A stretch of DNA of 41,176 nucleotides from an uncultured Synergistales bacterium (GCA_905233725.1 CAJOEM010000012.1:1-41176); one strand, 5' to 3'; shown: positions 1 through 25,698, numbered from the stretch's first letter. A program made the numbers and translations. Notes: generated by a model from the sequence alone, not told the origin.

Positions 1-959
1 TTCCTGAGCAGCCAGTCGAGCCCGAGCCAGAAATTCCTGAGCAGCCTGTCGAACCTGAGCCAGAAATTCCCGAGCAGCCCTTCGAACCTGAACCAGAGAT
101 CCCAGAGCAGCCCGTCGACCACGAGACAGAGTTTCCTGAGCAACCCGTCGACCCCGAGTCGGAAATTCCCGAGCAGCCCATCGAGCCCGAGCCAGAGATT
201 CCAGAGCAGCCTGTCGAGCCTGAACCGGAAATTACCGAGAAAACCGAAACTTACCAAATCGATTTCGAACCGTTAAAGCGCGAACACCTAACACCAATCC
301 CCGAAAGTTTAACAAAGCCAATCGAGATAAATTTCGGAACTCATGACGGAAACATCACAGATTCAGAATTCGTCAACATGTGCGCAAATTCAACGCCGGA
401 AATTATTCAGGACGCAATTTCTAACAAAAACGCAAACGTAAACGCTCGCGGAACTTTCGAGAAAACTCCACTCATGAACGCTATCGAGAAAAATCCGGAT
501 ATTAACGTCGCGAAAATTCTCATCGAAGCCGGCGCAGATGTCAACGCTAAAGACAAAGTCGGCATGAACGCTCTCATGTACGCCGCAACCTTCCAAAAAA
601 ATCCAGAGTTCGCAAAAATCCTTCTCAACGCAAAATCTGACCTGAATGCACGCGACTCTTCAAAACGTTCGGCTCTGATAATTGCCGCTCACAAAAATAA
701 TCCAGACGTTCTCAAAACTCTACTCGACGCTGGTGCTGAAACTGATTTCGCAGACAAAATCGGCTGGACAGCTCTGATTTACGCATCGTATTTCGGCGAC
801 AATGAGCAAATGATTCTGGATTTACTCGACGCTGGTGCTGAACCAAAAACTCGCGGTCATGAAGGTGAACGTGCAATCGATTACGCTCGCAAAAACAAGA
901 ATCTACAAGGAACTGACGCTCTCAAAAAACTCGAAGAATTAAGCCTATTGCAATATTAA
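1..959 (+). CDS. Pro/Glu-repeat and ankyrin-repeat protein (5' end outside window)
   Basis: The frame is open from the left edge, so the N-terminus and start are missing. The first visible ~77 residues are seven copies of an 11-residue unit of the form PEQPVEPEPEI. A short linker (about residues 78-125) follows, then four to five ankyrin repeats. Typical ankyrin phrases are visible, such as LIEAGADVNAKD, TALIYA and LLDAGAE, each about 33 residues apart. The last repeat decays into a charged helix ending in LSLLQY. Ankyrin repeats bind proteins; the Pro/Glu tract probably forms an extended rigid spacer, as in TonB-like or wall-spanning linkers. It lies 23 bases before the next gene of a same-strand operon of exported proteins, so a periplasmic or envelope role is likely but not shown, because any signal peptide lies outside the window. 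An ATG at 378 exists but would cut off the repeats, so I do not favour it as the true start. Confidence 0.85.
   Translation, partial: PEQPVEPEPEIPEQPVEPEPEIPEQPFEPEPEIPEQPVDHETEFPEQPVDPESEIPEQPIEPEPEIPEQPVEPEPEITEKTETYQIDFEPLKREHLTPIPESLTKPIEINFGTHDGNITDSEFVNMCANSTPEIIQDAISNKNANVNARGTFEKTPLMNAIEKNPDINVAKILIEAGADVNAKDKVGMNALMYAATFQKNPEFAKILLNAKSDLNARDSSKRSALIIAAHKNNPDVLKTLLDAGAETDFADKIGWTALIYASYFGDNEQMILDLLDAGAEPKTRGHEGERAIDYARKNKNLQGTDALKKLEELSLLQY
3..233 (+). repeat. 33-bp in-frame tandem repeat, seven copies
   Basis: Seven consecutive 33-base units start at 3, 36, 69, 102, 135, 168 and 201. Each encodes an 11-residue Pro/Glu unit. Copies differ mostly at synonymous sites and a few residues (for example VDHETEF in copy 4), so the array is not freshly expanded. 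The array may continue to the left of the window. Confidence 0.95.
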
Positions 960-982
960 ATATATCAGGAGGATTTAGAACC

Positions 983-2773
983 ATGTCAAGAATTAGAATC
1001 ATAGCTTGCTGTGTCTTGGCTGCAAATATCTTCTCGGGCACAGCTTCAATCGCGCAAGAATTATCTCGCGAGGAAAGATTACGTGAACGTGAGCTATCAC
1101 TGCCAGCTCGGACTATCCAACTCGACGAGTGGCAACAAGAACTCGAACGTCAAACAGCCGAACTCGAAAGCATCAAGCAATCTCTCGCAGAACGCGCAAT
1201 GCAAATTCCAGAGAAAGAACTGCAAATCGCCGAACAACAAGCAGACCTGGATAATCGCAAACAAGCTCTGGACTCATTCGCACAAACTCTCGAAGAACAT
1301 GCTCAGGAAATTCCCCTGCGTGAAATCGAGATACGTGAACAGAAAATCAATCTCGATCGCAGAGAAGCTGAAATCGCACAAATCGAATCCGGACTTTCTC
1401 AACAGAAATCCTACGTTGAACAGGCAGTCGCTGAGTTAAATTCCAAAGCTGCAGAACTCGAGAAAGCTCGCAAAATCATCTCGGAAAATGACGCAAAAGT
1501 TACGGCAAATGCTCAGGCAATCATCGCCCGTCAGAAAGAATTTAACGCACAGGTTCGGGCATTCACAGAAGAGAAAAAAGCTTTCGAAACAAAAATTGCT
1601 GAATTACGCGAACTCGAACAGAAACTGAAATCTCAATCGGACAATGCTGCAGCAGAACTCAAGAACGAAATCGCAGCCAAGAAATCCGAACTGGCAAAAA
1701 TATCGCAGGATTTGAAAGAACAGCGTGACATGTTGGCTCAGTATCGCGAGAAAATTCTCGAAGCCGAACACAAAATCAAGATTCTCGAATCACAGGTCAG
1801 CAGCCTGAACAACGAAGTCGCAGCTTACAGAGAGACCGCAAGCACAGAACGCCACAGAGCCGATGCTCTCGAAGAAACGCTCAGGAAACAAAGTGCTGAA
1901 CTCGAAAAACTCAGAGCACAATTCGACGAGAAAATGGACGTGAAAATGATTACGGAGTTTATTGCGCAGATTAACTCAGACGTTCCGGTGAGAATCAATC
2001 ACGCTGTCACAAGTTCGGACGGGGCTTTCATGAACTGGTCGGAAAATTACATGGAAGGAACAGGCATGGCAGCAATTCCCACGAAATACAAAGACACAGC
2101 TCAGGGTGTTGCACTCGCTCGACGTGGCGCAATTCTGGATTTACAGCGAAATTTGCTCGAAGCTATGAAAGGCGTGAATATTAATTCCGAGACCAAAATG
2201 GAAGATTTCATGGCTACGGATTCAGTTCGTTCAGCAGTCGAAGGCACGATTAAAGGTGTCGAAGTCTACGAGGGAAAACAGAATGGTGACATGTATATCG
2301 TAAAAGGCAGAATCAGGCTTGATAAAATACATGACGAAACAGCAAATCAACTCTCGAAAACTCAGCGCGAAGGTGATCCGGTCGAATACTCGAATCGTCG
2401 CGGGAAAAAATCCAGAGCAAGAGCACGCGTCGTACGTTCAGGAGATTTCACAGGCTTAATAATCGATGCCAGACATTTGCCAATTCAGCCGTCAATGTTC
2501 ACGAGAATCTTGGACGAAGATGGCAGACCAGTTTACGGCGTGAATTTCGGCAATCGCGATATTCAGAATCAGTCTGGCTTATACGTTTGGTACAGCAGAA
2601 TGGTCTACGCGCGTGACGAGCAGCGTGTTGGAACTCGTCCGATGATTATCAAGGCTCAGAGATTGTCAAATGCCGATCATGATCTCGTAATCCCGAATTA
2701 TGCAGCACACGAAATTCGCAATAACTCGTATAATTTCAGACGCGAATGCAGAGTCATAATCGTAAAGAATTAG
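983..2773 (+). CDS. Exported coiled-coil protein with LPP20-like C-terminal domain
   Basis: The start is set by a strong AGGAGG at 968-973. A signal peptide (about residues 1-24, ending TASIA/Q) is followed by roughly 300 residues of Glu/Gln/Lys/Leu-rich heptad sequence predicted to form a long coiled coil. From about residue 330 a globular part follows. It includes an LPP20-like stretch (ALARRGAILDLQRNLLEAM, then a V-E-G-T-I-K-G-V motif), then a C-terminal segment with TGLIIDARHLP and ILDEDGRPVYG, a pattern I associate with LPP20-type lipoproteins. There is no lipobox Cys, so it is probably soluble periplasmic or anchored through partners. LPP20 domains occur in FlgP, the outer-membrane-side flagellar ring protein of Vibrio. 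The gene lies 4 bases before a FlgT-like gene. A long helical rod with an LPP20 head suggests a spacer or scaffold. Function is inferred. Confidence 0.75.
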   Translation: MSRIRIIACCVLAANIFSGTASIAQELSREERLRERELSLPARTIQLDEWQQELERQTAELESIKQSLAERAMQIPEKELQIAEQQADLDNRKQALDSFAQTLEEHAQEIPLREIEIREQKINLDRREAEIAQIESGLSQQKSYVEQAVAELNSKAAELEKARKIISENDAKVTANAQAIIARQKEFNAQVRAFTEEKKAFETKIAELRELEQKLKSQSDNAAAELKNEIAAKKSELAKISQDLKEQRDMLAQYREKILEAEHKIKILESQVSSLNNEVAAYRETASTERHRADALEETLRKQSAELEKLRAQFDEKMDVKMITEFIAQINSDVPVRINHAVTSSDGAFMNWSENYMEGTGMAAIPTKYKDTAQGVALARRGAILDLQRNLLEAMKGVNINSETKMEDFMATDSVRSAVEGTIKGVEVYEGKQNGDMYIVKGRIRLDKIHDETANQLSKTQREGDPVEYSNRRGKKSRARARVVRSGDFTGLIIDARHLPIQPSMFTRILDEDGRPVYGVNFGNRDIQNQSGLYVWYSRMVYARDEQRVGTRPMIIKAQRLSNADHDLVIPNYAAHEIRNNSYNFRRECRVIIVKN

Positions 2774-2777
2774 CATC

Positions 2778-4067
2778 ATGAGAAAAATTTTACTGGCAAT
2801 TCTTGTATTAATCTTGTTATTGAATCCGGAGAATTTGTACGCAGCTCAGAAACGCAAATCTCAACGCAAGAAATCTCAGGCTCAATCGCAAAGTCAGGCT
2901 CAGAATTTGATCCGTGTTGAAGTCGAAGGTGTTGCGCCTGTCATAAACGAGAATCTAAACGAAGCTCGTGGAAGTGCAAGGCGTGACATGATGCGAAACG
3001 CTCTCGAAAATGCAATCGGAACGTTCGTGCAATCTGTATCAAAAATGGAAAATTTCGAGGTCGTAAAAGATCGAGTTTTCACACAAACTCAGGGACTTGT
3101 GAAACGTGTCGATGTTAAACGCGAATGGGTTGACGCTGATGGCTTGCTGCATTTATCCGGAACTTGCGATGTTGCTGAGAAAAATCTCGACGCAGTTTTG
3201 GGACCGGCAGTTATTGATGCTTTGGGAAATCCTAGAATCGTAATCTTGATTGACGAACGTGTCGGGAATAAAGTCTCGTTCATGTCCACGGCTGAAGGCG
3301 AAGTTCACAAAGTTTTCGAGCGCGCAGGCTTCACGATTATCGATCACAGACTCGTCCTGAATGACGGCGCGATTGACGTTGCTGCCACGATGATGTCGCA
3401 GAGTCCAGAGGGATTATTGCAAGTTGCGAACGCGTGTAATGCTGACGTTGTGATTTGCGGCACAGCTTATTCTGAGCAAATTTCGCATCAAAGGCGCTTG
3501 GGTGTGAATCTTTATAATATGCGAAGTCGTGTGAGATTGCGTGCGATTCTGGTTGATACGAGACAAACTCTGGGCTTCGAGGAAGGTTCGACGCATAATA
3601 ACAACAATCGTCCGGTGAACTTGAATAACGCTCTAGGACAAACTCCGGAGGACGGGGCTGTTCGCGGATTGAGACCGTCTGCTGAATCTGCCGCGAAAAA
3701 TATCGTGAATCGCATTGCGTATGCTCTGGCATCTGGAAATTCTAACGGGATTTCTGGTCGAACGGTGAAGATTATAATTTCCGGGATCGATTTCAGAACG
3801 GGAAGATTGTTGCGTGAGAAGTTGCAAAATCTTGGCGGAGTGAACGGAGTTTATCAGCGTAATTTCAAGAATAACAGGCTTGAACTCGATATAGTATCCG
3901 ACAAAAATTCCGAGGAAATTGCAGAATATCTTTCGGATAACAAGTTCGAGATAACCGGCGTATCCGGCGCGCAAGTTGAGGCGAATGGTGCGAGTTATGA
4001 TTCGAATCAGGTGAACGATGATGCAGGTGATTCTGGCTTTGAGTTTTTCGGGGATTGCTTTTGCTGA
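2778..4067 (+). CDS. FlgT-like exported protein
   Basis: 429 residues with an N-terminal signal peptide (about 1-23, ending LYAA) and a basic Gln/Lys/Ser tract after it. Residues ~45-140 fit the FlgT N-terminal pattern: VEVEGVAP, then A-R-x-x-A-x-R-D-x-x-x-x-A-L-x-x-A-I, a long amphipathic stretch, QGLVKRVDV and a closing beta hairpin. The middle (~150-310) resembles a TolB/CsgG-type nucleotide-free alpha/beta domain (PRIVILIDERVGN, ADVVICGTA). The C-terminal ~90 residues form a small alpha/beta module (TVKIIISGID, KLQNLGGVNGVY). FlgT is a periplasmic flagellar H-ring protein in Vibrio. Here the neighbours are LPP20- and CsgG-like, the same families as FlgP and FlgO. No Shine-Dalgarno is obvious, so translation is probably coupled to the gene 4 bases upstream. 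Its last 50 bases overlap the next gene. Confidence 0.7.
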   Translation: MRKILLAILVLILLLNPENLYAAQKRKSQRKKSQAQSQSQAQNLIRVEVEGVAPVINENLNEARGSARRDMMRNALENAIGTFVQSVSKMENFEVVKDRVFTQTQGLVKRVDVKREWVDADGLLHLSGTCDVAEKNLDAVLGPAVIDALGNPRIVILIDERVGNKVSFMSTAEGEVHKVFERAGFTIIDHRLVLNDGAIDVAATMMSQSPEGLLQVANACNADVVICGTAYSEQISHQRRLGVNLYNMRSRVRLRAILVDTRQTLGFEEGSTHNNNNRPVNLNNALGQTPEDGAVRGLRPSAESAAKNIVNRIAYALASGNSNGISGRTVKIIISGIDFRTGRLLREKLQNLGGVNGVYQRNFKNNRLELDIVSDKNSEEIAEYLSDNKFEITGVSGAQVEANGASYDSNQVNDDAGDSGFEFFGDCFC

Positions 4068-4437
4068 GTACAGCGTGATGGATCTGTTCGAGATGACTAA
4101 GCAAAGTCTTGTGTGTGACCGTGAGAATAATCTTGCGTCTGTTCTAGGCGTTGGGAAATTCAAAACGAGTGATTCACATTCGGTACTTCTGGCACGTCGG
4201 GCAGCGTTGACATCGGCGCGTCGAGGCTTGTTAATCTTGCGTGAGAGAATCTTGACTCAGGACGAAATTTCTCAGGAAGATTTGCGAATTTCTGGAACAG
4301 TTCCGCCGCTGAGATTAATTTCCGAGGACACGAATCCGGAGCAAAAATTATATTTCGTGTCAGTACAGGTTTCATTGTCAGAGCTTCTTGGAGAGAATGC
4401 TTTGAAAGCGCTGTCTGAGATTCAAAATTTGCAGTGA
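4018..4437 (+). CDS. Small exported LPP20-like protein
   Basis: 139 residues. An in-frame TGA at 4012-4014 forces the start to be ATG 4018 or ATG 4021. AGGTGA at 4009-4014 is better spaced for 4021. The N-terminus (VILALSFSGIAFA/E) looks like a signal peptide but is short and lacks the usual basic n-region, so export is likely but not certain. The central stretch (ARRAALTSARRGLLILRERI) matches the A-x-x-A-x-x-x-A-x-R pattern that opens LPP20/FlgT_N-like domains, followed by a beta-rich tail. It overlaps the FlgT-like gene by 50 bases in a different frame, so the two are surely co-translated. Likely a partner subunit of the neighbouring envelope proteins; exact role unknown. Confidence 0.65.
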   Translation: MMQVILALSFSGIAFAEYSVMDLFEMTKQSLVCDRENNLASVLGVGKFKTSDSHSVLLARRAALTSARRGLLILRERILTQDEISQEDLRISGTVPPLRLISEDTNPEQKLYFVSVQVSLSELLGENALKALSEIQNLQ

Positions 4438-4463
4438 GTAATAAATTCTCGTGAGGTGAAAAT

Positions 4464-4991
4464 ATGCGTAAATTTGTATTTGTTGTAAGTGTAATAATCG
4501 GGATTTGTGCTTTGAGTGGTATAGCGTCTGCTGCTGCGTTGCCGTCGAAGGGAGATATTGCAGTTCTGGTTGAGGGCGACGATCCGCAACACATAGCTAC
4601 TGCTGAGGCGATAATAATTGACACTCTCGTGTATAACGGCTACAGAGTTGTTGATGAAGCGAAGATGCGCCGAATCAAACTTGCTGCTGCTAAGGCAAAA
4701 GCTGCACGATTAGCAATGCAGGGAAATCTTGCTGCGATCCTGAAGATTAACGCGAGTTACAGTGTTGCTGCGACAGTTATTGCGCGGGTCAGAGCTGGAG
4801 AACCAATTTTGAACGAGTTTTCGCTCTACACTGGGACATCATCGGCTGCGATAATTGCCGTGACATCTCGTGGCGTGAAACTTGGCGGAAGAACTGCTCA
4901 GGGGAAACAAGTCGGCTACACTCCGGATGAGGCTCAGCAGAAAGCGATTGAACAAGCTGTGCAGTCTGGAATGGAACAAATGTTTTATTAA
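4464..4991 (+). CDS. Exported small protein of the CsgG/FlgT cluster, function unknown
   Basis: 175 residues, preceded by GAGGTG (4453-4458) at good spacing. A signal peptide (residues 1-23, ending IASAA) precedes a compact domain. The first part reads AVLVEGDD...AEAIIIDTLVYNGYRVVDE, the fold pattern of the TolB/CsgG N-terminal half, in which a strand and helix select a low-copy 'second system' element. The second part (SYSVAATVIARVRAG, then G-Y-T-P-D-E-A-Q-Q-K-A-I-E-Q-A) matches the end of FlgT-middle/CsgG-like domains. It lacks Cys and membrane segments, so it is probably periplasmic. Its position between the LPP20-like gene and the two CsgG-like genes suggests it belongs to the same assembly. 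I do not recognise a named family with certainty. Confidence 0.6.
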   Translation: MRKFVFVVSVIIGICALSGIASAAALPSKGDIAVLVEGDDPQHIATAEAIIIDTLVYNGYRVVDEAKMRRIKLAAAKAKAARLAMQGNLAAILKINASYSVAATVIARVRAGEPILNEFSLYTGTSSAAIIAVTSRGVKLGGRTAQGKQVGYTPDEAQQKAIEQAVQSGMEQMFY

Positions 4992-5009
4992 GAAGGGAAG
5001 GTTATTATC

Positions 5010-5630
5010 GTGAAGAAAAATTTGTTAAGTGTAATTGTGATCTTACTGGTATTAGTTTGCGCTGTGACTTGTGACGCGAGACCCAGATTGGCGATCCGTC
5101 CGTTTGCGAACAAGACTACGAACCCGAATATTCCGGCTGATGCGATAACTGACATGATGACGACAGAATTGAACAAGGCTAGAATATTCAGCTTGATGGA
5201 ACGTGAAAGACTTGATTACATCGGCGAAGAGATCAGGCTCGGTCAATCCGGCTTAATGGATCCGTCAACTGCTCCGAGAGTCGGCAAAATCAAAGGTGCG
5301 CAATACACAATGACAGGAGCTGTTACGGTTTATCACTTCAACAAGAGTGGCGGAATTGCAGCTGTTCCTGGATTGGCTGGAGGTGCTGCGGCGAAAACTG
5401 CGTATGTTGTGATTGACTTGCGAATCGTTAATAACGAGACGGGTGAAGTTGAATACGCTGAAGTTCGTCAAGGTTCGGCGAAACGTGAAGCTGCTGGAAT
5501 GGCTGCGGCGTTTCCTGGATTTTTTGTGGCTGGTGGCAGCAGGTCATACGGCGGAATTTTAGCGTCGGCAACTCGTGACGCTGTTATGCAACATGTGAGA
5601 GCTTTACAGGAATACACCTGGTATGAATAA
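5010..5630 (+). CDS. CsgG-like exported protein (copy 1)
   Basis: 206 residues. GTG start, chosen because AAGGGAAGG (4994-5002) lies 7 bases upstream and a signal peptide begins there (about 1-22). The mature part opens LAIRPFANKTTN and continues with LMERERLDYIGEEIRLG, VGKIKGAQYTMTGAVT and a DLRIVNNETGEV strand, the order expected for the CsgG family. CsgG forms outer-membrane oligomeric pores for curli, and related FlgO-type proteins support flagella. No lipobox Cys in standard context (CAVTCDA is not a good lipobox), so pore formation as a classical CsgG lipoprotein is doubtful. There is a Gly/Ala-rich insertion around residues 118-130 and another near 165-180 in the region that would form the membrane hairpins. 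It is a clear paralogue of the next gene. Confidence 0.8.
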   Translation: MKKNLLSVIVILLVLVCAVTCDARPRLAIRPFANKTTNPNIPADAITDMMTTELNKARIFSLMERERLDYIGEEIRLGQSGLMDPSTAPRVGKIKGAQYTMTGAVTVYHFNKSGGIAAVPGLAGGAAAKTAYVVIDLRIVNNETGEVEYAEVRQGSAKREAAGMAAAFPGFFVAGGSRSYGGILASATRDAVMQHVRALQEYTWYE

Positions 5631-5676
5631 TAATTTTGACTTGAAATTTTGATTTGAAATCGGAGGAATGTGTGTC

Positions 5677-6930
5677 ATGAAGAAGTTTTTGAAATTTGCG
5701 CTGTGTTTGTTAATCGTAATTTTTGCGTGTGAAGCTGCGTTCGCGAGTATAAGGCTCGGTGTCATGCAGTTCGTTACGAAAGCGGACGGTGTGACGGAAT
5801 ATCAAGCTTCGGCTGCAGGAGATGTTTTCGTGAGAATTTTGGCGAATAACACGAGTAATATATCGATTCTTGAGCGTGAGAGACTTGATGAAATCGGCGC
5901 GGAGATTCGCTTGGGAATGTCCGGACTTGTCAGCGCTCACACGGCTGTTCAGGTCGGGAAAATTGCTGGCTGTCAGTACATGTTGATGGGCTCAGTTACG
6001 AATCTGAAATCCAAGAGTTCAAACATAACTTTGCCATTTACAATCGGAATTGGCGTTCGTGAATCAGCGGCTACAGCTACAATTGATGTGCGAATTGTTG
6101 ACGTTGAGACAAGCGAGATTGTCGGTGCGTTGAGTGATTCAGGAACGGGCAAACAATCCGGGACAAGCCTCTCGGTTATGGGAGTTGCGTTTGATAGCGA
6201 CGAGTTGAGCGGAATGGAAGCAGAAGCAATCGCAAAAGCCTCGGAGAAATTAGCTCCCAAAATCGAGAAATTGTTGCTAAAAAGAGCAGGCAGCTCCGGA
6301 AATCCTGGCGACATAAGTTTCAGACCTTCACGCACTGCCTCGACCTACGCTGAACAGAGAGCTGAAGAAGCCATGACTCAAGCCCGAACGAATACTCGCA
6401 AAACTCCGGCCAAGAGAACAAGAGTCACAACACCAACACCTGCACCAGCACCAGTTGCACCAGCCGCACCTGCTGAAGAAAATTACGAAGATTATTATGA
6501 TTATTCTCAGCAGCAAGTCACGGCTCCAGCTCCGGCTCAAACGCAAACGCAAATGCAATCCGGAGAATTTGAGAATTACTCGACGAACCCTGAAGATGTG
6601 ATCCCGACATACGGACTTGACGAGAAGCAATCTGAGAATTTAATCACGGCGCATAAGCGATTCTGGAATGCAAATAACAAACGTTCGGCATATGATCGAT
6701 TCGTTGGCTTATACAACAGCAATAGCAACGATTACTTGGCTGCATATCGAGCGGGAGTTTTGGCGCAACAGCTGGGAATGCGCGATGATGCGAACGCCTG
6801 GTTTGAAACTGTACTGAGCATTAACCCGAATTACGAACCGGCTCAGAAAGCGAAAGCTAGTGTGAATGCCCGTTCGAGTTCGAGTACGAAGAAATCTTCG
6901 AGTTCAAAATCCAAACGCAGGAGAAAATAG
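5677..6930 (+). CDS. CsgG-like exported protein with TPR-like tail (copy 2)
   Basis: An ATG at 5668 sits directly against CGGAGGA (5661-5667). ATG 5677 has proper spacing and starts a normal signal peptide, so I chose it (417 residues). After cleavage near AAFA/S the CsgG-like domain runs to about residue 210, with ILERERLDEIGAEIRLGMSG and VGKIAGCQYMLMGSVT matching the preceding gene. A ~90-residue low-complexity linker (Pro/Ala and Gln rich, containing TPTPAPAPVAPAAPAEE) leads to a C-terminal helical region (~310-395) with a TPR-like phrase (AAYRAGVLAQQLGMRDDANAWFETVL..NPNYEPA). The end is a Ser/Lys/Arg-rich tail (KSKRRRK). This is probably the linker-tethered interaction subunit of the operon. 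It is the last gene before the terminator at 6965. Confidence 0.8.
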   Translation: MKKFLKFALCLLIVIFACEAAFASIRLGVMQFVTKADGVTEYQASAAGDVFVRILANNTSNISILERERLDEIGAEIRLGMSGLVSAHTAVQVGKIAGCQYMLMGSVTNLKSKSSNITLPFTIGIGVRESAATATIDVRIVDVETSEIVGALSDSGTGKQSGTSLSVMGVAFDSDELSGMEAEAIAKASEKLAPKIEKLLLKRAGSSGNPGDISFRPSRTASTYAEQRAEEAMTQARTNTRKTPAKRTRVTTPTPAPAPVAPAAPAEENYEDYYDYSQQQVTAPAPAQTQTQMQSGEFENYSTNPEDVIPTYGLDEKQSENLITAHKRFWNANNKRSAYDRFVGLYNSNSNDYLAAYRAGVLAQQLGMRDDANAWFETVLSINPNYEPAQKAKASVNARSSSSTKKSSSSKSKRRRK

Positions 6931-6964
6931 CTCGCGAAAATATTTTTGCGAAAAATAATTCTAG

Positions 6965-6990
6965 CCACTGGTTTCGAACCGGTGGTTTTT
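6965..6990 (+). terminator. Rho-independent terminator of the envelope operon
   Basis: CCACTGGTT/AACCGGTGG (9 bp with one T-G pair, loop TCG) is followed by TTTTT and then ATTTT. It lies 34 bases after the last CsgG-like gene and just before the 3' end of the convergent gene. Confidence 0.85.
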
Positions 6991-6999
6991 ATTTTGCAG

Positions 7000-8022
7000 T
7001 TATGCTTTTTTCTTGAGAAGTTTTTTAATAATATTCTTAACACTATTTGGAAGAATGCTTATTATAATTGGACGTATTGTTTTGATAAATCTCTTAGGGA
7101 AGCTTTGGTCTTTTACCACCGCGTAATGGAGTCCCTTTGTTGTTAAATGTTTATCGAACATTTCCCAAGTTTGTGATTTTTTCCTGGTTTTGTAGTACAT
7201 TGTGTTATGGGATAATGCAAAATCTACATCAGTTCTTTGGAGCTTAAATTCGTTTTTGTTGATTTTAGCGATTAACTCTTCGCCACGTTCAGTTCTTACG
7301 ATAAAAATTGAAACTCCATTCTGGTTATACTCTTTCATATCAGGAGTTAGTCCCCAATAATCTCCAAGCGTGAGATCAGCCTGATGATTTTTACCCCTGA
7401 ACTTGCATGAGTAACATGAAAGTCTTGCATGAACGCTAAACGCATAACCATAATCGGAAGCGTAAAAATTTTTTGTGAATATTTTCCCGTTCTCGAACTT
7501 CGCGAAAATATAAGCAGGTGTCCAACCATGTTTTTTATATCGCACTGAAAAATCAATTATTTTCGAAGCGAATCTTTTTTCAAGAGAATCAGTGTATTGC
7601 TTTGCTACTTCTGAAGAAGTTGGACCATAACAAATTAAATCTACAGTAAATAGCGATGAGGTGTCAACGTTTTTTGCTCGTAAAAAAGAATACAAAGCTG
7701 CGACATCACAGCCCAATCCCGTGAACAACACGGTACTTCCAGATTGTAATTTTTCTGCGACCGCGAGATATATTGACTTATATTCGCCATTTTGAAAAAT
7801 TCTTTTTGAGGTCTCAATATATTTTGAAGTTTTCAGTTTATGTAGTTCTTCGAGTTTTTCAACGCAGGCAAATTCAGCGCTCTTAAAATCTTTGGAATAA
7901 CACGCTCCAAAAACTACTCCTCCTTCGTTTATTATGGCTTCAGATATTGCAGAAGCTCCACCACCCGACGACGATTGCAATAATTTTTCTTTGTCAAGAT
8001 AGTAGCCAGAATACGCTGACAA
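7000..8022 (-). CDS. F420 hydrogenase/dehydrogenase beta-subunit-like protein lacking its ferredoxin domain
   Basis: 340 residues from a TTG at 8022. The protein begins near SSSGGGASAISEAIINEGGVVFGA, the point where the catalytic part of this family starts. Full-length relatives carry an N-terminal 2x[4Fe-4S] ferredoxin domain with two CxxCxxC clusters, which is absent here. The typical YSCKFRGKNHQADLTLGDYWG motif (two Cys, then D-L-T-L-G-D-Y-W-G) is present, as is FTGLGCDVAAL. Such proteins often occur in surface-polysaccharide loci and are thought to be flavin-dependent redox enzymes or pyruvyl/sugar-modifying partners; the substrate here is unknown. The upstream frame extends only 16 codons to a TAG (8071-8073) and has no ATG or GTG. 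The gene is isolated, AT-rich compared with its neighbours and carries heptamer repeats in its leader, so I regard it as acquired or eroded but with an intact frame. Confidence 0.75.
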   Translation of the reverse strand: MSAYSGYYLDKEKLLQSSSGGGASAISEAIINEGGVVFGACYSKDFKSAEFACVEKLEELHKLKTSKYIETSKRIFQNGEYKSIYLAVAEKLQSGSTVLFTGLGCDVAALYSFLRAKNVDTSSLFTVDLICYGPTSSEVAKQYTDSLEKRFASKIIDFSVRYKKHGWTPAYIFAKFENGKIFTKNFYASDYGYAFSVHARLSCYSCKFRGKNHQADLTLGDYWGLTPDMKEYNQNGVSIFIVRTERGEELIAKINKNEFKLQRTDVDFALSHNTMYYKTRKKSQTWEMFDKHLTTKGLHYAVVKDQSFPKRFIKTIRPIIISILPNSVKNIIKKLLKKKA

Positions 8023-9732: not shown

Positions 9733-10842
9733 TTATTTTTTCGCGATAAATTTCTGAGCAACGAGCAATTCCGCACATTCCACAGCACCGCCAGCCGCGC
9801 CTCTGAGAGTGTTGTGTGAAAGTCCAACGAATTTCCAGTCATAAATACTATCCTTGCGCAATCTTCCGAATGAAACGCCCATTCCGTTTTCATAATTCAC
9901 GTCTTTGGCGACTTGCGGACGGTCATCTTCGTCGAAATACTGAATGAAATTTTTCGGAGCGCATGGAAGCTCTAATTCTTGAGGAACGCCTTTGAACTCG
10001 CGTAATTTTGCGATTAATAATTCTTTGTCATTCGGATTTTTGCGGAATTTCACGAACGTTGCAGCTGTGTGTCCGTACAAAACCGGAATCCTGACGCACT
10101 GTGCAGAAATCACTGGCTCTTTTGCCGGGACAATTTCGTCGCCCTGAATTTTGCCGAAGATTCTCAGTGGTTCTTTCTCACTTTTTTCTTCTTCACCGCT
10201 GATGAACGGGATCACATTTCCGACCATTTCGGGCCAGGTATTAAAATTTTTCCCTGCTCCGGATATTGCCTGGTAAGTTGTCGCGATCACTTCATACGGC
10301 TCGAATTCACGCCATGCAGCCAATGCCGGCGCGTAACTCTGAATCGAACAGTTCGGTTTTACGGCGATGAAGCCTTTGCTTGTTCCCAAGCGTTTTCTCT
10401 GAGCGTGAATAATTTCTGAGTGTTCCGGATTAATTTCTGGAATTATCATTGGTACGTCCGGTGTCCAACGATGCGCGCTGTTGTTAGATACGACGGGTGT
10501 TTCGGTTTTAGCGTAATCTTCCTCGATTTTTTTTATCTCATCTTTTGAGAGGCTGACCGCACTGAACACAAAATCCACACTGTCCGCGATTTTGCGAACG
10601 TTGTTGACGTTTTCGAGCTTGATATTTTTCACGTTCTCGGGGATTGGCTCGTCCAAAAGCCAGCGATTGCTAACTGCTTCGGAATAATATTTCCCTTCGC
10701 TATTTGGACTTGCAGCTATAACTGAGATATTAAACCACGGATGATTGTGCAAAATCTGAATGAAACGCTGACCGACCATTCCAGTTCCGCCGAGTATTCC
10801 TACGCTGAATTTTTTTCCCTGAATTTCTTGCATTTCTCGCAA
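9733..10842 (-). CDS. asd: Aspartate-semialdehyde dehydrogenase, archaeal/fungal-type
   Basis: Reduces aspartyl phosphate to aspartate semialdehyde. The TTG start at 10842 is chosen because AGGAG (complement of 10852-10856) is 9 bases away, whereas the ATG at 10833 would be 18 away. The NADP loop is GILGGTGMVGQRFIQIL. The active-site Cys is in KPNCSIQSYAPALAAW and the catalytic His in RIPVLYGHTAATFVKF. Length (369) and the PNCSIQ-type motif with RWTPDVPMIIPEINPEH place it in the branch common in archaea and fungi rather than the shorter E. coli type. It stands 40 bases behind rfbB and directly before hom. A candidate extended -10 promoter overlaps the rfbB stop codon, so asd-hom may be expressed separately from the rhamnose genes. 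Confidence 0.95.
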   Translation of the reverse strand: MREMQEIQGKKFSVGILGGTGMVGQRFIQILHNHPWFNISVIAASPNSEGKYYSEAVSNRWLLDEPIPENVKNIKLENVNNVRKIADSVDFVFSAVSLSKDEIKKIEEDYAKTETPVVSNNSAHRWTPDVPMIIPEINPEHSEIIHAQRKRLGTSKGFIAVKPNCSIQSYAPALAAWREFEPYEVIATTYQAISGAGKNFNTWPEMVGNVIPFISGEEEKSEKEPLRIFGKIQGDEIVPAKEPVISAQCVRIPVLYGHTAATFVKFRKNPNDKELLIAKLREFKGVPQELELPCAPKNFIQYFDEDDRPQVAKDVNYENGMGVSFGRLRKDSIYDWKFVGLSHNTLRGAAGGAVECAELLVAQKFIAKK

Positions 10843-10881
10843 CTGAAAGAACTCCTTCTCAAATAAAAAAATTTTTGCAAT

Positions 10882-10890
10882 ATTATAGCA
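10882..10890 (-). promoter_or_regulatory. Candidate extended -10 promoter for asd-hom
   Basis: TGCTATAAT on the minus strand overlaps the last codons and the stop of rfbB. No good -35 is visible, as expected for an extended -10 promoter. Expected start near 10875. Confidence 0.4.
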
Positions 10891-11872
10891 GCTTTGAGAG
10901 TAAAGGCTTCCACCAAGATTCGTTATTCAAGTACCAGTCAATCGTTTTCTTGATTCCGTCCGCGAATTTCGTTTCAGGTTGCCAGCCGATTGCGTTATGA
11001 ATTTTCGTGGGGTCAATCGCGTAACGCAGATCATGTCCTTTACGATCCGTTACAAAGCTGATTAATTCTTCGGGTTTTGCGAGCTGCCTGAGAATTAATT
11101 TCACGATGTCTATATTTCGCATTTCGTTATGACCGCCGACGTTATAAATTTCGCCGATTGTGTTTTCATTCTGGATTATCATGTCGATTGCGCGACAGTG
11201 ATCCTCGACGTAAAGCCAATCTCGAACGTTCAAGCCCTGACCGTAAACAGGCAATTTTTTATCATGAAGCGCGTTGATTATCATTAACGGGATCAATTTC
11301 TCCGGGAACTGGTACGGACCGTAATTATTCGAGCAACGACTGATGCTGACGGGCAATTTGTACGTGCGATTATACGCGAGTGTGAGCAAATCCGCGCTAG
11401 CTTTCGATGCAGAATACGGCGACGAGGCTCTCAGCGGCAAATCCTCCGTGAAAAACAAATCCGGGCGATCCAGCGGCAAATCACCGTAGACTTCATCTGT
11501 TGCAACCTGATGAAAGCGTTTTATGCCGAATTTCACGCACGCGTCCATCAAGACAGCCGTTCCCAAAATATTGGTCTTGAAAAAAATATCCGGCGTTTCG
11601 ATTGAGCGATCAACATGAGATTCTGCTGCAAAATTTACGATTACGTCTGGTTTATCTCGCGCAAATATCTCGTAAATAGCTTCTCTGTCACAAATATCGT
11701 TTTGATAAAACGTGATTTTATTCTCAGCAATTATTTTATCCAGTGTGTGAATGTTTCCGGCGTAAGTCAATTTATCGACGCAGATTATCTCGAAATCCGG
11801 GTGATGTTCGAGCATGTAAAAAATAAAATTGCTGCCAATAAATCCAGCGCCACCCGTAACTATAATTTTCAC
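10883..11872 (-). CDS. rfbB: dTDP-glucose 4,6-dehydratase
   Basis: Second step of dTDP-L-rhamnose synthesis: oxidises and dehydrates dTDP-glucose to the 4-keto-6-deoxy sugar, using bound NAD. A short-chain dehydrogenase fold is clear. TGGAGFIGSNF binds NAD, ATDEVYGDL carries the Thr-Asp-Glu catalytic trio, YSASKASAD carries the Tyr-x3-Lys pair, and NNYGPYQFPEKLIP is the substrate loop. GTG start at 11872, whose GTGA overlaps the stop of rfbC by 4 bases, so the two are translationally coupled. Length 329 is normal for the family (about 330-360). Last gene of the rfbADCB run. Confidence 0.97.
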   Translation of the reverse strand: MKIIVTGGAGFIGSNFIFYMLEHHPDFEIICVDKLTYAGNIHTLDKIIAENKITFYQNDICDREAIYEIFARDKPDVIVNFAAESHVDRSIETPDIFFKTNILGTAVLMDACVKFGIKRFHQVATDEVYGDLPLDRPDLFFTEDLPLRASSPYSASKASADLLTLAYNRTYKLPVSISRCSNNYGPYQFPEKLIPLMIINALHDKKLPVYGQGLNVRDWLYVEDHCRAIDMIIQNENTIGEIYNVGGHNEMRNIDIVKLILRQLAKPEELISFVTDRKGHDLRYAIDPTKIHNAIGWQPETKFADGIKKTIDWYLNNESWWKPLLSKLL

Positions 11873-12432
11873 TTGTAAATTCGCTCCTTGAAATCTTGAA
11901 AATTGCCCCAGCGTTTGTCTTTTTCTGAGAGTATTAACGGGCAGGAAATCTCTGGGAATTTTATATTTATATCCGGATCGTTGTAAATTATTCCGCCCTC
12001 GTCGTTAGCGTGATAGAAATCGTCGCACTTGTAGCAAAATTCCGCTTCATCTGATAATACCAGGAATCCGTGAGCAAAATTCTTCGGGATCAAAAATTGC
12101 TTGTGATTCTCAGCCGATAATTCAAGCCCGTAATATTTCCCGAACGTCGGACTGCATGGGCGTAAATCAACCGCTGCGTCAAAAACTCTGCCACGAATTA
12201 CGCGTACTAACTTTGTCTGAGGGTGATTAATCTGGAAATGCAATCCGCGCAAAACTCCTTTCACACTGCTGCTCTGATTATCCTGAACGAATTTTATGTC
12301 AAAGCCAGCTTCACGCATATCGTTCTCGTTATACGTTTCCGAAAAATATCCGCGCTCATCACCATGAACAGCCGGAGTAATTACGCACAAACCTTCGATG
12401 CCGTTTAGATTATATTCGACTTTAATTTGCAT
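11869..12432 (-). CDS. rfbC: dTDP-4-dehydrorhamnose 3,5-epimerase
   Basis: Third step of dTDP-L-rhamnose synthesis, a cofactor-free epimerase of the cupin fold. Family signatures are visible: FSETYNENDM, GVLRGLHFQ with the catalytic His, RVIRGRVFDAAVDLR, and NFAHGFLVLSDEAEF with the conserved Tyr/His region. 187 residues is the usual length. It overlaps rfbD by 11 bases and rfbB by 4 bases, so it is embedded in a tightly coupled operon. Confidence 0.97.
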   Translation of the reverse strand: MQIKVEYNLNGIEGLCVITPAVHGDERGYFSETYNENDMREAGFDIKFVQDNQSSSVKGVLRGLHFQINHPQTKLVRVIRGRVFDAAVDLRPCSPTFGKYYGLELSAENHKQFLIPKNFAHGFLVLSDEAEFCYKCDDFYHANDEGGIIYNDPDINIKFPEISCPLILSEKDKRWGNFQDFKERIYK

Positions 12433-13339
12433 GATGTTCTAAATATCTCCTTAATGCGTTCTGCCAAGCAGGCAATAATTCAAAACCCGATTCTTGCAAT
12501 TTGCTCTTGTCGAGTCGTGAATTAAAAGGCCGTTTGGCTTTTGATAATCCGTATTCTTCAGTTGTAACCGGAATAACGTTCACGTTCACATTCGCCTGTC
12601 TGAAAATTTCGCAGGCAAAATCGTACCAGCTGATGAAGCCGCCCTCATTTGTTGCGTGATATATGCCGAATTTGTCGGTCTCATTAATATCAACGAGTAA
12701 TCTTGCTAAATCCGGCGTGTAAGTTGGCGTGCCGATCTGATCATTTACAACTCTGAGCGTGTCATGTTTTTTCGCGATATTCAGCATCGTCTCGACAAAA
12801 TTTCTGCCGTTCGCACCGAATGCCCAGGCGATCCTGACTATGAAAAATTTCTCGAGATTATCACGTACTGCAAATTCTCCGTCAAGTTTGCTCTGACCGT
12901 AAAAATTCAGCGGCTCAAATTTCTGTTCGTCAGGCTTCCATGGCTCGACACCGTTTCCGTGAAAAACGTAATCCGTGCTGATATACGTCATGACGCAATT
13001 ATTTTTCCTGCAAGCTTTGGCTATATTCTCAGTTCCAGTTACGTTTACAGCTCGAACTATTTTTTTATTAGCTTCGTCCTCAGCAGCATCCACAGCCGTC
13101 CACGCAGCACAATGAATCACGCGATCCGGCTTCACGGATTCTATAACTTTCTCAACTTGTTCATGATTCGTAATATCGAGTTTTACGTACCTGAAATTCT
13201 CTGCGCCTGAAAAATTCTCGGTTATGTCGGAGCCGACGCATTCGTAATTCCGCCCCAAAATTTCGCGCACGAGGTCCGTTCCTAATTGACCATTCGCGCC
13301 CGTCACAAAAAATCTAATTTTCCCGTTACTATTTCGCAT
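12422..13339 (-). CDS. rfbD: dTDP-4-dehydrorhamnose reductase
   Basis: Last step of dTDP-L-rhamnose synthesis, NAD(P)H-dependent reduction at C4. [15 protein letters not shown] is the nucleotide-binding loop, [10 protein letters not shown] and [11 protein letters not shown] carry the Ser/Tyr-x3-Lys catalytic set, and [19 protein letters not shown] follows the family pattern. 305 residues, slightly longer than average (~290). Overlaps its neighbours by 11 bases on both sides. Rhamnose made here would feed lipopolysaccharide or surface glycans; no glycosyltransferase lies in the window. Confidence 0.97.
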
Positions 13340-14222
13340 CTATATATTTCCCGTCCAAAACATCTCGCAAATATTGCCCATATTGATTCTTAATTAGCAA
13401 TTCCGAAACTTTCATAACTTTGTCTCTGTCAATCCAGCCGTTTAAATAAGCGATTTCCTCCAAGCAAGCTATCTTTCTGTGTTGATGTGTCTCGACAGTC
13501 TTAACAAAATTCGTAGCGTCAACTAAGCTCTCGTGAGTTCCTGTGTCCAGCCACGTAAAGCCCTGACCGAGCAATTCAACGTTCAAGTTGCCCTGATCCA
13601 GATAAATTCGATTCAGATCCGTAATTTCGAGTTCACCGCGCTTTGATGGCTTGAGATTCTCCGCGAAATTCACGACCCTGTTGTCATAAAAATACAGTCC
13701 CGTGACGCAATAATTGCTCTTAGGCTTCTGGGGTTTTTCCTCGATTGAGATTGCATGACCGTGTTTGTCAAATTCCACGATGCCGAATCTTTCCGGATCA
13801 TCGACGTAATAGCCAAATACAGTCGCGCCACGTCCGGATTCTGCATTGTCTACAGCAACTTTCAAACGCTTCACTAGCCCCTGTCCCGAGAAAATATTAT
13901 CGCCAAGAATCATCGCTACACATTCAGAGCCGATAAATTTCTTGCCGATTATGAACGCTTGAGCAAGTCCATCTGGTGAAGGCTGTTCCTCGTAGAAAAA
14001 ATTAACACCGAAACGAGAGCCATCGCCTAATAATTTCTCAAATCTTGGCAAGTCGTCCGGTGTTGAAATTATGAGAATGTCCCGTATTTTCGCCTGCATT
14101 AAAATCGAAACTGGATAATAAATCATTGGCTTGTCATAAACCGGCAGTAATTGCTTTGACGTAACGAGTGTGAGCGGATATAAGCGTGTGCCGCTGCCTC
14201 CTGCCAGAACTATGCCCTTCAT
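13329..14222 (-). CDS. rfbA: Glucose-1-phosphate thymidylyltransferase
   Basis: Joins glucose-1-phosphate to dTTP to give dTDP-glucose, the first committed step of dTDP-rhamnose synthesis. [13 protein letters not shown] is the nucleotidyltransferase signature, [16 protein letters not shown] follows it, and LGDNIFSG carries the metal-binding Asp. [13 protein letters not shown] near the C-terminus is typical of RfbA. I chose ATG 14222 (297 residues) because AGGGGGTC is 9 bases upstream; an upstream ATG at 14246 would place the ribosome site inside the coding sequence. First of the four rfb genes and 32 bases from the tRNA-Leu gene on the same strand. Confidence 0.97.
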
Positions 14223-14254
14223 TGCGAGCTGAGACCCCCTTGTCATGAAAATTT

Positions 14255-14338
14255 TGGTGCGGGGGAGGGGACTCGAACCCCTACGTCGTTAGACACCAGA
14301 TCCTAAGTCTGGCGCGTCTGCCATTTCGCCACCTCCGC
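14255..14338 (-). tRNA. tRNA-Leu (anticodon TAG)
   Basis: The minus strand folds as a class II tRNA with a long variable arm. Anticodon stem/loop CCAGA-CTTAGGA-TCTGG, T-arm AGGGG-TTCGAGT-CCCCT, and an encoded CCA end are all clear. The acceptor stem GCGGAGG/CCCCCGC has one A-C mismatch at pair 5-68. Confidence 0.95.
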
Positions 14339-14351
14339 AAAAAACATGTCT

Positions 14352-14360
14352 ATTTTAGCA
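14352..14360 (-). promoter_or_regulatory. Candidate extended -10 element before tRNA-Leu
   Basis: TGCTAAAAT lies on the minus strand between purF and the tRNA. No clear -35. It could start a transcript for the tRNA and the rfb genes. Confidence 0.35.
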
Positions 14361-14368
14361 TACTTGTG

Positions 14369-15766
14369 TTAATTTCGCGCATTTACAGGAACTTCCATCG
14401 GGTAATTGCCATCAAAGCACGCTTTGCAATACAAATCTTCCCCGCAAGCTTCACGCAAATTTTCCTCACTCAGATACACGAGCGAATCTGCTCCGATATA
14501 TTCGCGGATTTCCTCCGGGGATTTCTGGACTGCGATTAATCTATCACGATATGGCGTATCGATGCCGAAATAGCACGAAAATTTCACAGCAGGTGAAGCT
14601 GAACAAACGTGAATTTCTCTCGCACCAGAGTCACGAAGATTTTTCACGATTCGCTTTATCGTCGTGCCACGCACAATCGAGTCGTCAATCACGATTAAGC
14701 GCTTATTTTCGATATTACGCTTTATCGTCGCAAGTTTTATTCTAACGGCAGTCTCGCGCAATTCCTGTGTCGGCTGTATGAACGTTCTGCCCATGTATTT
14801 ATTCTTGATCAAGCCCTCTCCGTAAGCAATTCCGGATTCTTCTGCATAGCCAATCGCAGCAGGGATTCCAGAATCCGGGATAGCCATCACAACATCGGCT
14901 TCGATTTTCTTCTGACGAGCCAGCAGCATGCCGCAACGCCTGCGGAAATCATACACGCTCACTCCGTCAAGAACGCTATCAGGTCTGGCAAAATACACAA
15001 GCTCGAACACGCACAAATTTTTCCTGCACCAGTGCGAAGGCTCAATCGATCTCACGCCGTCATAATCTGCAATTACGATCTCACCCGGCGTAATATCCCG
15101 GACAAATTCAGCGTCAATAGCCTCGAGTGCGCAACTTTCCGACGCAAGAACCCAGCCCGAATCATCGCGAAATTTTCCAAGACACAACGGGTGCAATCCA
15201 TGCGGATCACGAACTCCGATTAATTTATCGCCAATCGTTATAACCAGAACATACGCGCCTTTAATCAAGCTCATAGCGTTCTTGATCCCGGCTTCGATCC
15301 CGTGACGGCCGCCATGCTGACATATCAAGTTCAAAATCGATTCTGAATCGCTCGTCGTGTGAAAAATCATGCCTTGATCCGTCAACATTTCCTTCAAGCT
15401 ATCAGAATTTACGAGATTGCCGTTATGAGCCAGTGCCAAATCACCGAGGCGACATTTCGCAGCCAGCGGTTGTGCACTACGAACGTCGCTTTCACCTGCA
15501 GTCGAATATCTCACATGGCCGATCGCAATATTTCCGCGCAATTCATCCAGAGCATCTCCCCTGAAGACTTCACCAGCTAATCCGAGACCTTTCTTGGGCG
15601 TGATATTCCCGTTAGAATTTGCAGCAATCCCGGCACTTTCCTGACCTCTGTGCTGCAGCGCATATAATCCGTAATAAACAAGCGGAGCAGCGTCTTTAGT
15701 CTTGTCATTCCTGAAGACACCAATCACTCCGCATTCCTCGTGTAACTTATCGTCTAAGATTCGCAT
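14369..15766 (-). CDS. purF: Amidophosphoribosyltransferase
   Basis: First committed step of purine synthesis: glutamine plus PRPP gives phosphoribosylamine. An 11-residue propeptide (MRILDDKLHEE) precedes the nucleophile Cys12 in CGVIGVF, so the protein is probably matured by propeptide removal. HRGQESAGIA and HNGNLVNS mark the glutaminase half. RLIVIDDSIVRGTTI is the PRPP-binding loop of the transferase half. Several Cys in the C-terminal half (RRRCGMLLA, CSASPAVKFSCYFGIDTP, LYCKACFDG) fit the Fe-S-containing Bacillus-type enzyme. Starts 3 bases after the purC stop, so the two are co-transcribed. Confidence 0.97.
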   Translation of the reverse strand: MRILDDKLHEECGVIGVFRNDKTKDAAPLVYYGLYALQHRGQESAGIAANSNGNITPKKGLGLAGEVFRGDALDELRGNIAIGHVRYSTAGESDVRSAQPLAAKCRLGDLALAHNGNLVNSDSLKEMLTDQGMIFHTTSDSESILNLICQHGGRHGIEAGIKNAMSLIKGAYVLVITIGDKLIGVRDPHGLHPLCLGKFRDDSGWVLASESCALEAIDAEFVRDITPGEIVIADYDGVRSIEPSHWCRKNLCVFELVYFARPDSVLDGVSVYDFRRRCGMLLARQKKIEADVVMAIPDSGIPAAIGYAEESGIAYGEGLIKNKYMGRTFIQPTQELRETAVRIKLATIKRNIENKRLIVIDDSIVRGTTIKRIVKNLRDSGAREIHVCSASPAVKFSCYFGIDTPYRDRLIAVQKSPEEIREYIGADSLVYLSEENLREACGEDLYCKACFDGNYPMEVPVNARN

Positions 15767-15769
15767 GCT

Positions 15770-16486
15770 TTATTTCGCGTTAATCCGGCTGAAAATTTCC
15801 TGATAAGCTTCTTCTACGCCACCAAGATCTCGCCTGAATCTGTCTTTGTCAAGTTTCTCGTTAGTTTTCGCGTCCCAGAATCTGCACGTGTCCGGTGAAA
15901 TTTCGTCCGCTAAAACAATCGTTCCGTCGGGTAATTTGCCGGCTTCGATTTTGAAATCAATCAGCTTCACGCCCAATCCAGCGAAAAACTCACGCATCAC
16001 GTCATTCACTTTGAACGCGAGCGTCTTGATCTCAGCGAGTTCTTTTTCATTCACGATTCCGAGTGCCAGAATGTGATAATCGTTAATCAGCGGGTCATTC
16101 AACTCGTCATTCTTAAGCGAAAATTCCAGCGTAGGATTCTTTAATTCTCGCCCTTCTTCGACACCGTATCTTTTCGAGAACGAACCTGCTGCGACGTTGC
16201 GAACGATAATTTCCAGCGGCACAATCTTCACGGCCTTGACCAGTGTTTCACGATCGCTCAGCTGCTCGACAAAATGAGTTTTCACACCGTGCTTCTCTAG
16301 TAGCGCGAACATTATATTGCTCATCTTGTTATTAATCACGCCTTTGCCTGTAATCGTGCCTTTCTTGAGTCCATTGAAAGCCGTAGCGTCGTCCTTGTAA
16401 TCCACGATGTAATATTCAGGATTATCCGTTGCGAAAACTTTCTTAGCTTTACCCTCGTATAGCTGCTCTAATTTCTTGACATTCAT
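15770..16486 (-). CDS. purC: SAICAR synthetase (phosphoribosylaminoimidazole-succinocarboxamide synthase)
   Basis: Joins CAIR and aspartate using ATP in purine synthesis. [13 protein letters not shown] opens the ATP-grasp-like domain as in E. coli Pur[21 protein letters not shown] and [14 protein letters not shown] are the two family signatures. The frame is open to 16570, but ATG 16486 gives the standard length (238) and start. An alternative ATG at 16501 directly abuts AGGAAGGA. Lies between an orphan ParA gene and purF on the same strand. Confidence 0.96.
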
Positions 16487-16514
16487 AATTAAACAAAACA
16501 TTCCTTCCTGATAA

Positions 16515-17300
16515 TTATTTTCCCAGGAATCTATTTCCCGGGAATTTTTGCTTCTCTGAGCCTGCTTCAAAATCCGAACCAGATTCTACAGCTTCGTCTT
16601 CATCTTCATCATAATAATAATTTTCCTCGACACTCTCATTCCCCCAGGCTTCCTCGAATTTTCCAGTGTCCTTGATGACTTGCACAGCGTTCTCTATTTT
16701 GCGCAGAATTGCGTTGTAATACTCACGCTGAGTCGCAGTCAGTCCAACCGACCAGATATTTCCACGCGCAATATTATACGGAATGTGCTTCAACAGTGGA
16801 AGTTCGCCGATAATCGGGTACTCGCAATCGTACAGCAGCTCCTCAACATGGCGCGCAATCTTCGAGTTATCAAAGCCGAGTTTCACAATCGGGAATTGAT
16901 TCTTAGCCTTTTGATTATTCTTGTCGAGATTCACCGTCTTGTAAATCACGTTCAAATTTACAATCGAGAAAACGTCCGGTCTAATTGGCACGAGAACCAT
17001 GTCCGCGAAACTCATCGCCTCACGAACTCTGTCACTCATACTTGGCGGGCAATCCAGAATCACGAGATCTTCCGGAGCTTTTGCGTCACGTTCCGGTTCC
17101 AAGTTTTTTTTAACTCGCAGCGTGTTCTTGAAATAATTTCCCAGATACAACAATCCGTCGCTGAAATTCCTCTGCGGATCTAAATCTATCGCGAGAACTT
17201 TCTTGCCCCTGAACAGCGCTAACTCAGTCAGTATTATCGACAGTGTAGTTTTTCCGACTCCGCCTTTGACATTAGCTATTGCGATTGCCATTTCCGACAT
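16515..17300 (-). CDS. Orphan ParA/Soj-family ATPase
   Basis: ParA-type ATPase of about 261 residues. The deviant Walker A is [11 protein letters not shown] (signature Lys at the start), Walker A' is AIDLDPQRN and Walker B is [12 protein letters not shown] 17300 has AGGGTG at 9 bases; a GTG at 17312 is the alternative. The C-terminus (~30 residues, [13 protein letters not shown]...) is strongly acidic and probably disordered. There is no ParB gene and no parS-like palindrome nearby, so chromosome partitioning is unlikely. Position or polarity of a cargo protein is the common role of such orphans (as in MinD, MipZ, PpfA). It sits inside a metabolic operon (trpF-like, DMT transporter, purC, purF). 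Confidence 0.85.
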
Positions 17301-17327
17301 GTAATTAATCACCCTTTCGCAAAAAAA

Positions 17328-23744: not shown

Positions 23745-23760
23745 AACTAGACATAACTAG
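23741..23760. repeat. 10-bp tandem repeat at the fliO start
   Basis: ACATAACTAG twice in perfect register. The first copy contains the fliO start codon (complement of CAT). Confidence 0.95.
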
Positions 23761-23808
23761 AAACTGGACATGTTCGCGCGAGAAAATTACTTTTATGCTT
23801 TTACACTT

Positions 23809-24171: not shown

Positions 24172-24219
24172 GATAAATCTTTCTCCCTTGTTATTCTCAA
24201 ATTTCTAAATACACTTCGC

Positions 24220-24225
24220 ATTATA
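24220..24225 (-). promoter_or_regulatory. Candidate -10 element before cheY
   Basis: Perfect TATAAT on the minus strand in the 80-base gap between the fliN-like gene and cheY. The -35 region (TTTTCG at 17 bases) is weak. An internal promoter for cheY-fliOPQR is possible. Confidence 0.4.
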
Positions 24226-24251
24226 CCAAAATATTCTCACAACGAAAATAT

Positions 24252-24626: not shown

Positions 24627-24629
24627 TTT

Positions 24630-25679: not shown

Positions 25680-25698
25680 AAACTTTCTCTAACCTCCA

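Follow-up and report, generated by a model that had tools for sequence, protein, structure and literature searches.

The window analyzed here is a stretch of 41,176 nucleotides from an uncultured Synergistales bacterium, and it opens with a plus-strand operon in which six genes are complete and the first is truncated by the end of the contig. The window start is the edge of contig C12, in a genome of 1.87 Mb and 57 contigs. From gene 1 to gene 7, the intergenic distances are 23, 4, -50, 26, 18 and 37 bases, and the last of them becomes 46 bases when the second methionine (5677) is taken as the start of gene 7; with that start, our ORF calls agree with the original prediction of same-strand genes separated by 4-46 bases or overlapping. 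An intrinsic terminator-like hairpin with an 11-bp stem and a T-rich tail (6963-6987, plus strand) lies at the 3′ end as the single terminator that had been proposed, and the gene that follows (7000..8022) runs in the opposite direction. Sec-type N-termini were found in genes 2-7, matching the expectation of at least six signal-peptide-like N-termini, and no convincing lipobox was found in the operon proteins of the window, genes 6 and 7 included. The operon itself is real; however, because its 5′ end lies outside the window, seven genes are a minimum.

Gene 2 (983..2773, plus strand) encodes a FlgP-like protein of the LPP20/SHS2 type with a signal peptide. When compared with the PDB, its family profile (A2) matched Campylobacter FlgP (9hmf_C) with an E-value of 4.6e-16 and Vibrio FlgP structures with E-values of 8.3e-7 to 6.7e-5. 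The SHS2 domain lies at about 2030-2320 (plus strand). A2 aligns to 66-158 of 9hmf_C with single-residue gaps only, and the insert, which in this alignment sits between the SHS2 helix and the second strand, is matched at full length. This insert of the FlgP SHS2 domain has been associated with ring formation (PMC12222027). We assigned the N-terminal ~300 residues (1061-1957, plus strand) to a coiled coil because the segment has a hydrophobic period of 3.5 residues and contains four Pro/Gly in 299 residues. Only one subclade of the genus has the coil, and the coiled-coil "rod" that had been proposed is accordingly no general part of the system. The C-terminal domain (about 2450-2770, plus strand), which carries a TGLIIDxRHLP...YG...GL motif, shows a weak likeness to a portion of Tp0624 from Treponema pallidum (5jir, E 0.0013), a hint that spirochaete envelope proteins share this domain.

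Gene 1 (3..959, plus strand, no start at the contig edge) encodes a Pro/Glu repeat stalk followed by ankyrin repeats (Pfam Ank_2, 2.5e-25). The stalk is encoded by a 33-bp tandem repeat at positions 1-233, which, at the contig end, is the likely cause of the assembly break. Relatives of gene 1 have signal peptides, and its ankyrin repeats are therefore probably periplasmic. The ankyrin gene was found only beside the coiled-coil-bearing FlgP, and it lies just upstream of that gene wherever the contigs of the subclade reach that far.

Gene 3 (2778..4067, plus strand) encodes a FlgT-like protein with an N-terminal SHS2 domain (FlgT_N), a middle domain of the CsgG/FlgT_M type and a C-terminal domain. 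Foldseek found the N and M domains, and the C-terminal domain is of the alpha/beta type. In the Foldseek search of the AF2 model (pLDDT 82.7) against the PDB, the top two matches were both Vibrio FlgT, namely 8z5n_0 (2.3e-11), from the LPHT ring, and 3w1e (3.6e-11). These matches span ~400 columns, the full length of the model, and rank above CsgG, GNA1162 and LpoB. The global TM-scores were low (0.24-0.28), as would be expected if the domain orientations differ, and we relied on the E-values and the ranking. The FlgT insert appears in the model as a helix at moderate confidence and not as a hairpin. The N-terminal ~215 residues also matched the NCBIfam model of LipL46 at 62.9 bits, below its equivalog cut-off of 400. 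In the window's own proteins, Pfam FlgT_N and LPP20 went undetected; both were detected further afield, FlgT_N in 19 of the 26 gene 3 relatives and LPP20 in 4 of the 14 gene 2 relatives. Profiles, AlphaFold models searched with Foldseek, and Pfam matches of relatives back the FlgT_N, LPP20 and CsgG folds of the original prediction.

The two genes that follow encode secreted proteins related to genes 2 and 3. Gene 4 (4018..4437, plus strand), which overlaps gene 3 by 50 bases, encodes a small SHS2/FlgP-like protein with a shortened insert: its family aligns to A2 in hhalign (P 96%, E 3.4e-9), and its profile A4 matches 9hmf_C at 2.7e-5, leaving about 17 residues of FlgP without a counterpart where the insert lies. 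Gene 5 (4464..4991, plus strand) encodes a single domain of the PelC/CsgG/FlgT-middle fold. Its AF2 model (pLDDT 88.6) matched 7rxu (4e-7), GNA1162 (2e-6), PelC in PelBC (3e-5) and CsgG (3e-5), as well as FlgT in the LPHT ring (1e-4). In hhalign, the gene 5 profile pairs with the central portion of the gene 3 family (A1; P 96%, E 1.6e-9), and in other families gene 5 is also homologous to the C-terminal part of gene 3.

Gene 6 (5010..5630, plus strand) encodes a secreted CsgG/LpoB-type domain without a lipobox, with Pfam matches to CsgG (95 bits, cut-off 20.8) and LpoB (48 bits); its family profile A5 matched CsgG structures at 4e-7. Gene 7 (5668..6930, plus strand) combines a CsgG-type domain (5818-6240; Pfam CsgG 68.5 bits, cut-off 20.8), a Pro/Ala-rich linker and a C-terminal TPR (6739-6834), and it aligns to the gene 6 family in hhalign (E 1e-45). 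Among 20 relatives of gene 7, FlgT_M is present in 13 and FlgT_C in 12, both placed between the CsgG domain and the linker, and TPRs are present in nearly all; FlgT_C has been lost from the window's copy. Judged by these domain matches, the operon of the relatives would encode FlgP plus all three FlgT domains, divided among several genes. No FlgO family was found among the Pfam matches of the window proteins or of the gene 7 relatives, and the CsgG-type genes 6 and 7 could be FlgO stand-ins.

Some genomes of the genus carry, downstream of their FlgT-like gene, tandem expansions to four to five CsgG-type genes whose products reach ~850 aa (locus L042, 2699-8604; locus L043, 11843-17957). In L043 (G009:C125:37000-56900), the product of a minus-strand gene at 5430-6437 starts with a TIR-like domain and also has a transmembrane helix and a domain similar to gene 5/FlgT_M. 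This protein adjoins two large CsgG-type proteins, lies near a second FlgT/gene 5/CsgG cluster (9772-17957), and may be a case in which the gene 5/FlgT_M fold serves in sensing or defence.

A CsgG-type pore was among the structures first suggested for this locus, and we found nothing in its favor. No CsgA/B/E/F partner is encoded among the operon's proteins, as had been noted for CsgA/B, and neither gene 6 nor gene 7 has a lipobox; a curli system or CsgG pore is thus unsupported. A broader alternative is a non-flagellar outer-membrane complex, in which CsgG/PelC-type rings or pores would export protein or polysaccharide, or LpoB-type proteins would activate cell-wall synthesis, with LPP20/FlgT_N proteins as the scaffold. 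CsgG and LpoB are indeed the strongest Pfam matches of the operon, gene 5 resembles PelC and GNA1162, and gene 3 resembles leptospiral LipL46. Against this, no curli, Pel or other export partner turned up alongside the module, the NCBIfam match to LpoB, the PBP1B activator, reaches 37.6 bits compared with an equivalog cut-off of 110.55, and the top fold match of gene 3 is FlgT.

The module is conserved well beyond the window. Most of the 30 loci around gene 3 relatives keep the order FlgP-like, FlgT-like, small LPP20, gene 5, CsgG and CsgG-TPR, or this order with parts missing, and in families outside the window's order (L101-L104) the arrangement is FlgP, FlgT, small LPP20, CsgG/TPR and gene 5. 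The arrangement is beyond chance, as many Synergistota genomes from several families repeat it, and because it is common to two orders of the phylum, the module is old within Synergistota. A single-sequence scan of genome contigs gave no match; an alignment-based scan gave 56 loci, all but one titled Synergistota or Synergistales, and Fretibacterium fastidiosum was among the genomes with relatives of the module. A cultured strain, L-13, has the FlgT-like gene as F. fastidiosum does. The one exception, a bin named Phycisphaerales (L078, LVBB01000095.1), carries a typical Synergistota FlgT-like gene and is probably a case of misbinning.

The window also holds a flagellar operon (22610-29218, minus strand) with fliP, a cheY-like gene, two fliN/FliY-like genes, fliM, fliL, motB, motA and flbD. 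Its distance of 15 kb had been offered as support for a flagellar role; we rejected this closeness as evidence and regard it as incidental, as 300-890 kb separate the module from fliM in genomes with a single-contig or near-complete chromosome (G049, G057, G087, G119 and G123). The flanks of the module checked in family f11 are housekeeping genes (TatD, MetG) and an MCP, and the non-flagellar character of the flanking genes is a further point for a non-flagellar complex. The genome of the window encodes FlgH and FlgI, so that L/P rings are available to decorate. A scan for sigma-28 and sigma-54 flagellar promoters upstream of 27 relatives gave one chance-level match. This weak test is of little value, because the strict motifs are likewise absent from the window's own flagellar operon.

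We then compared the distribution of the module with that of flagella in 188 Synergistota genomes, of which 135 were counted as flagellated (FliM or FliG present) and 53 were not. FlgT-like genes were found in 82 genomes, FlgP-like genes in 70, CsgG in 109, FliM in 127 and FliG in 129. The FlgT-like gene is present in 80/135 flagellated versus 2/53 non-flagellated genomes (Fisher 1e-13), or in 28/41 versus 1/22 when counted by genus, and the FlgP-like gene in 68/135 versus 2/53; all these comparisons ignore shared ancestry. Eight carriers are fliM-negative: six have fliG and are incomplete genomes, and the other two also lack rod-protein matches. Of these two exceptions, G076 has a FlgT-like fragment of 184 residues located where a contig ends. 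The FlgT-like gene of G186 shares 72% identity with those of family f5, which is flagellated, and is a probable transfer or misbinning to judge by this identity. Within family f3, the FlgT-like gene occurs in 7/7 flagellated g11 genomes and in 0/6 non-flagellated g36 genomes, five of which retain CsgG. CsgG is present in 98/135 flagellated genomes and also in 11/53 non-flagellated ones, and CsgG alone was therefore rejected as a flagellar marker. Conversely, 55/135 flagellated genomes have no FlgT-like gene, and the module is thus inessential for flagella. It is therefore accessory, almost never present without flagella and often missing where flagella exist.

These counts bear on both alternatives. 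If the operon encoded a non-flagellar complex, its link with flagella would be indirect, both being retained by free-living motile lineages, and CsgG genes do exist without flagella; the FlgP- and FlgT-like genes, however, are nearly confined to flagellated genomes, whereas CsgG alone is not. We consider such a complex unlikely, although it is the leading competitor of the flagellar reading. Alternatively, the operon might hold general surface or periplasmic proteins of SHS2 and CsgG folds (LPP20/LipL46-type) that were duplicated in Synergistota and merely co-transcribed, with no common machine. Both folds are widespread and reused, the number of paralogues varies, with tandem CsgG expansions, and 13 genomes have FlgT without a detectable FlgP. 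Nevertheless, the gene order is fixed across two orders of the phylum, and the presence of the two genes is correlated (69 genomes with both, one with the FlgP-like gene only), which makes this reading quite improbable. Two results had been named beforehand as refuting a flagellar ring, namely equal occurrence in non-flagellated genomes and the wrong folds; the set instead co-occurs with flagella, and neither refuting result was found. For this reason, of the ring, pore or bushing originally suggested, a flagellar ring is now the best reading and the pore is unsupported; we infer the place of the ring at the motor.

Overall, we provide a putative model in which the operon probably encodes a diverged outer-membrane scaffold of the flagellar motor, of the H-ring or basal-disk type. 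Its products would encircle the L/P rings in the periplasm as a ring or disk lining the outer membrane from inside, with a role comparable to that of the H-ring in Vibrio (FlgO/FlgP/FlgT) and of the basal disk that FlgP forms in Campylobacter. The FlgP-like protein of gene 2 would polymerize sideways via its long SHS2 insert into one or more rings, and the FlgT-like product of gene 3, which combines SHS2 and CsgG/FlgT_M domains, would form an adjoining ring coupled to the basal body. Gene 4 and genes 5-7 may supply further ring layers or caps, with the TPR tail of gene 7 as a docking surface. The assembly might brace the outer membrane or aid the flagellum in crossing it. In the window's subclade, FlgP has acquired its coiled coil, up to ~44 nm long, and the operon its ankyrin protein, and these additions would presumably act as spokes or tethers. 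We describe the module as one that would work like an H-ring or basal disk and not as a proven member. We withheld full H-ring membership because of the lack of lipoprotein signals, the lack of a Pfam FlgO match, the missing FlgT_C in the window, the lack of linkage to flagellar genes and the 13 FlgP-less genomes.

We further speculate, doubtfully, that the Synergistota scaffold has a new layout, with a disk of FlgP, FlgT and CsgG folds that, in a gut-associated subclade, would be bridged to peptidoglycan or the stators by coiled-coil spokes of up to ~44 nm, one from each FlgP subunit, and the ankyrin protein on its Pro/Glu stalk. PflA/PflB of Campylobacter bridge likewise, although their parts are unrelated to the coiled-coil/ankyrin set of Synergistota.

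Flagellar rings of the FlgT type have been described chiefly in gamma-proteobacteria and Rhodobacter, and disks of FlgP in proteobacteria and Campylobacterota. Synergistota is a phylum with two membranes, and our literature search, with most subscription journals outside it, found no outer-membrane flagellar rings or flagellar tomography for it. The scaffold described here is probably a flagellar outer-membrane ring previously undescribed in Synergistota. If so, outer-membrane rings of the FlgP, FlgT and CsgG-fold type would seem to be older or more widespread than thought, and the presence and absence of the module among close relatives would provide natural deletions for probing ring function. 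The splitting of FlgT domains over genes, with CsgG-type beside FlgP/FlgT-type proteins, also bears on how such rings evolved from general envelope folds. FlgP outside proteobacteria has a precedent in, e.g., Acetonema longum, whose FlgP sequence has served as a search query (PMC5758724).

Compared with known systems, the operon has the CsgG/PelC/LpoB superfamily in common by Pfam and fold in genes 6 and 7 and by fold in gene 5 and the middle of gene 3. However, genes 5-7 lack a lipobox, the match covers the periplasmic core only, and the operon has no curli or Pel partner. Leptospira LipL46 is matched by the N-terminal part of gene 3; gene 3 nevertheless scores far below the equivalog level and does not encode a lipoprotein, and we know of no flagellar role for LipL46.

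In Vibrio, the H-ring (FlgO, FlgP and FlgT) surrounds the L/P rings beneath the outer membrane, and in its mutants, the flagellum fails to cross the outer membrane or the stators are unassembled (PMC7990780, PMC6375700). The Synergistota module resembles it in having a FlgP-type SHS2 protein with a long insert, FlgT-type N and M domains, FlgT_M and FlgT_C in the gene 7 family, secretion, near-restriction to flagellated genomes and accompanying L/P-ring genes. In contrast to Vibrio, where FlgP and FlgO are outer-membrane lipoproteins, the operon proteins carry no lipoprotein signals; some Helicobacter, too, have a FlgP that is not a lipoprotein (PMC11756786). Moreover, the Synergistota FlgT domains are distributed over several genes, two CsgG-type proteins stand in a set with no Pfam FlgO match, small FlgP-like, PelC-fold, TPR, coiled-coil and ankyrin parts are added, and the module lies away from the flagellar genes.

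The Campylobacter basal disk is made of FlgP (PMC12222027). Unlike the Synergistota set, epsilon-proteobacteria were found to have no FlgT-like proteins (PMC5758724). Campylobacter FlgP is a small lipoprotein, whereas gene 2 adds a C-terminal domain and the subclade-specific coiled coil of ~300 residues. Nevertheless, Campylobacter FlgP (PDB 9hmf) is the closest sequence match to both gene 2 and gene 4, and its insert is equal in length to that of gene 2.
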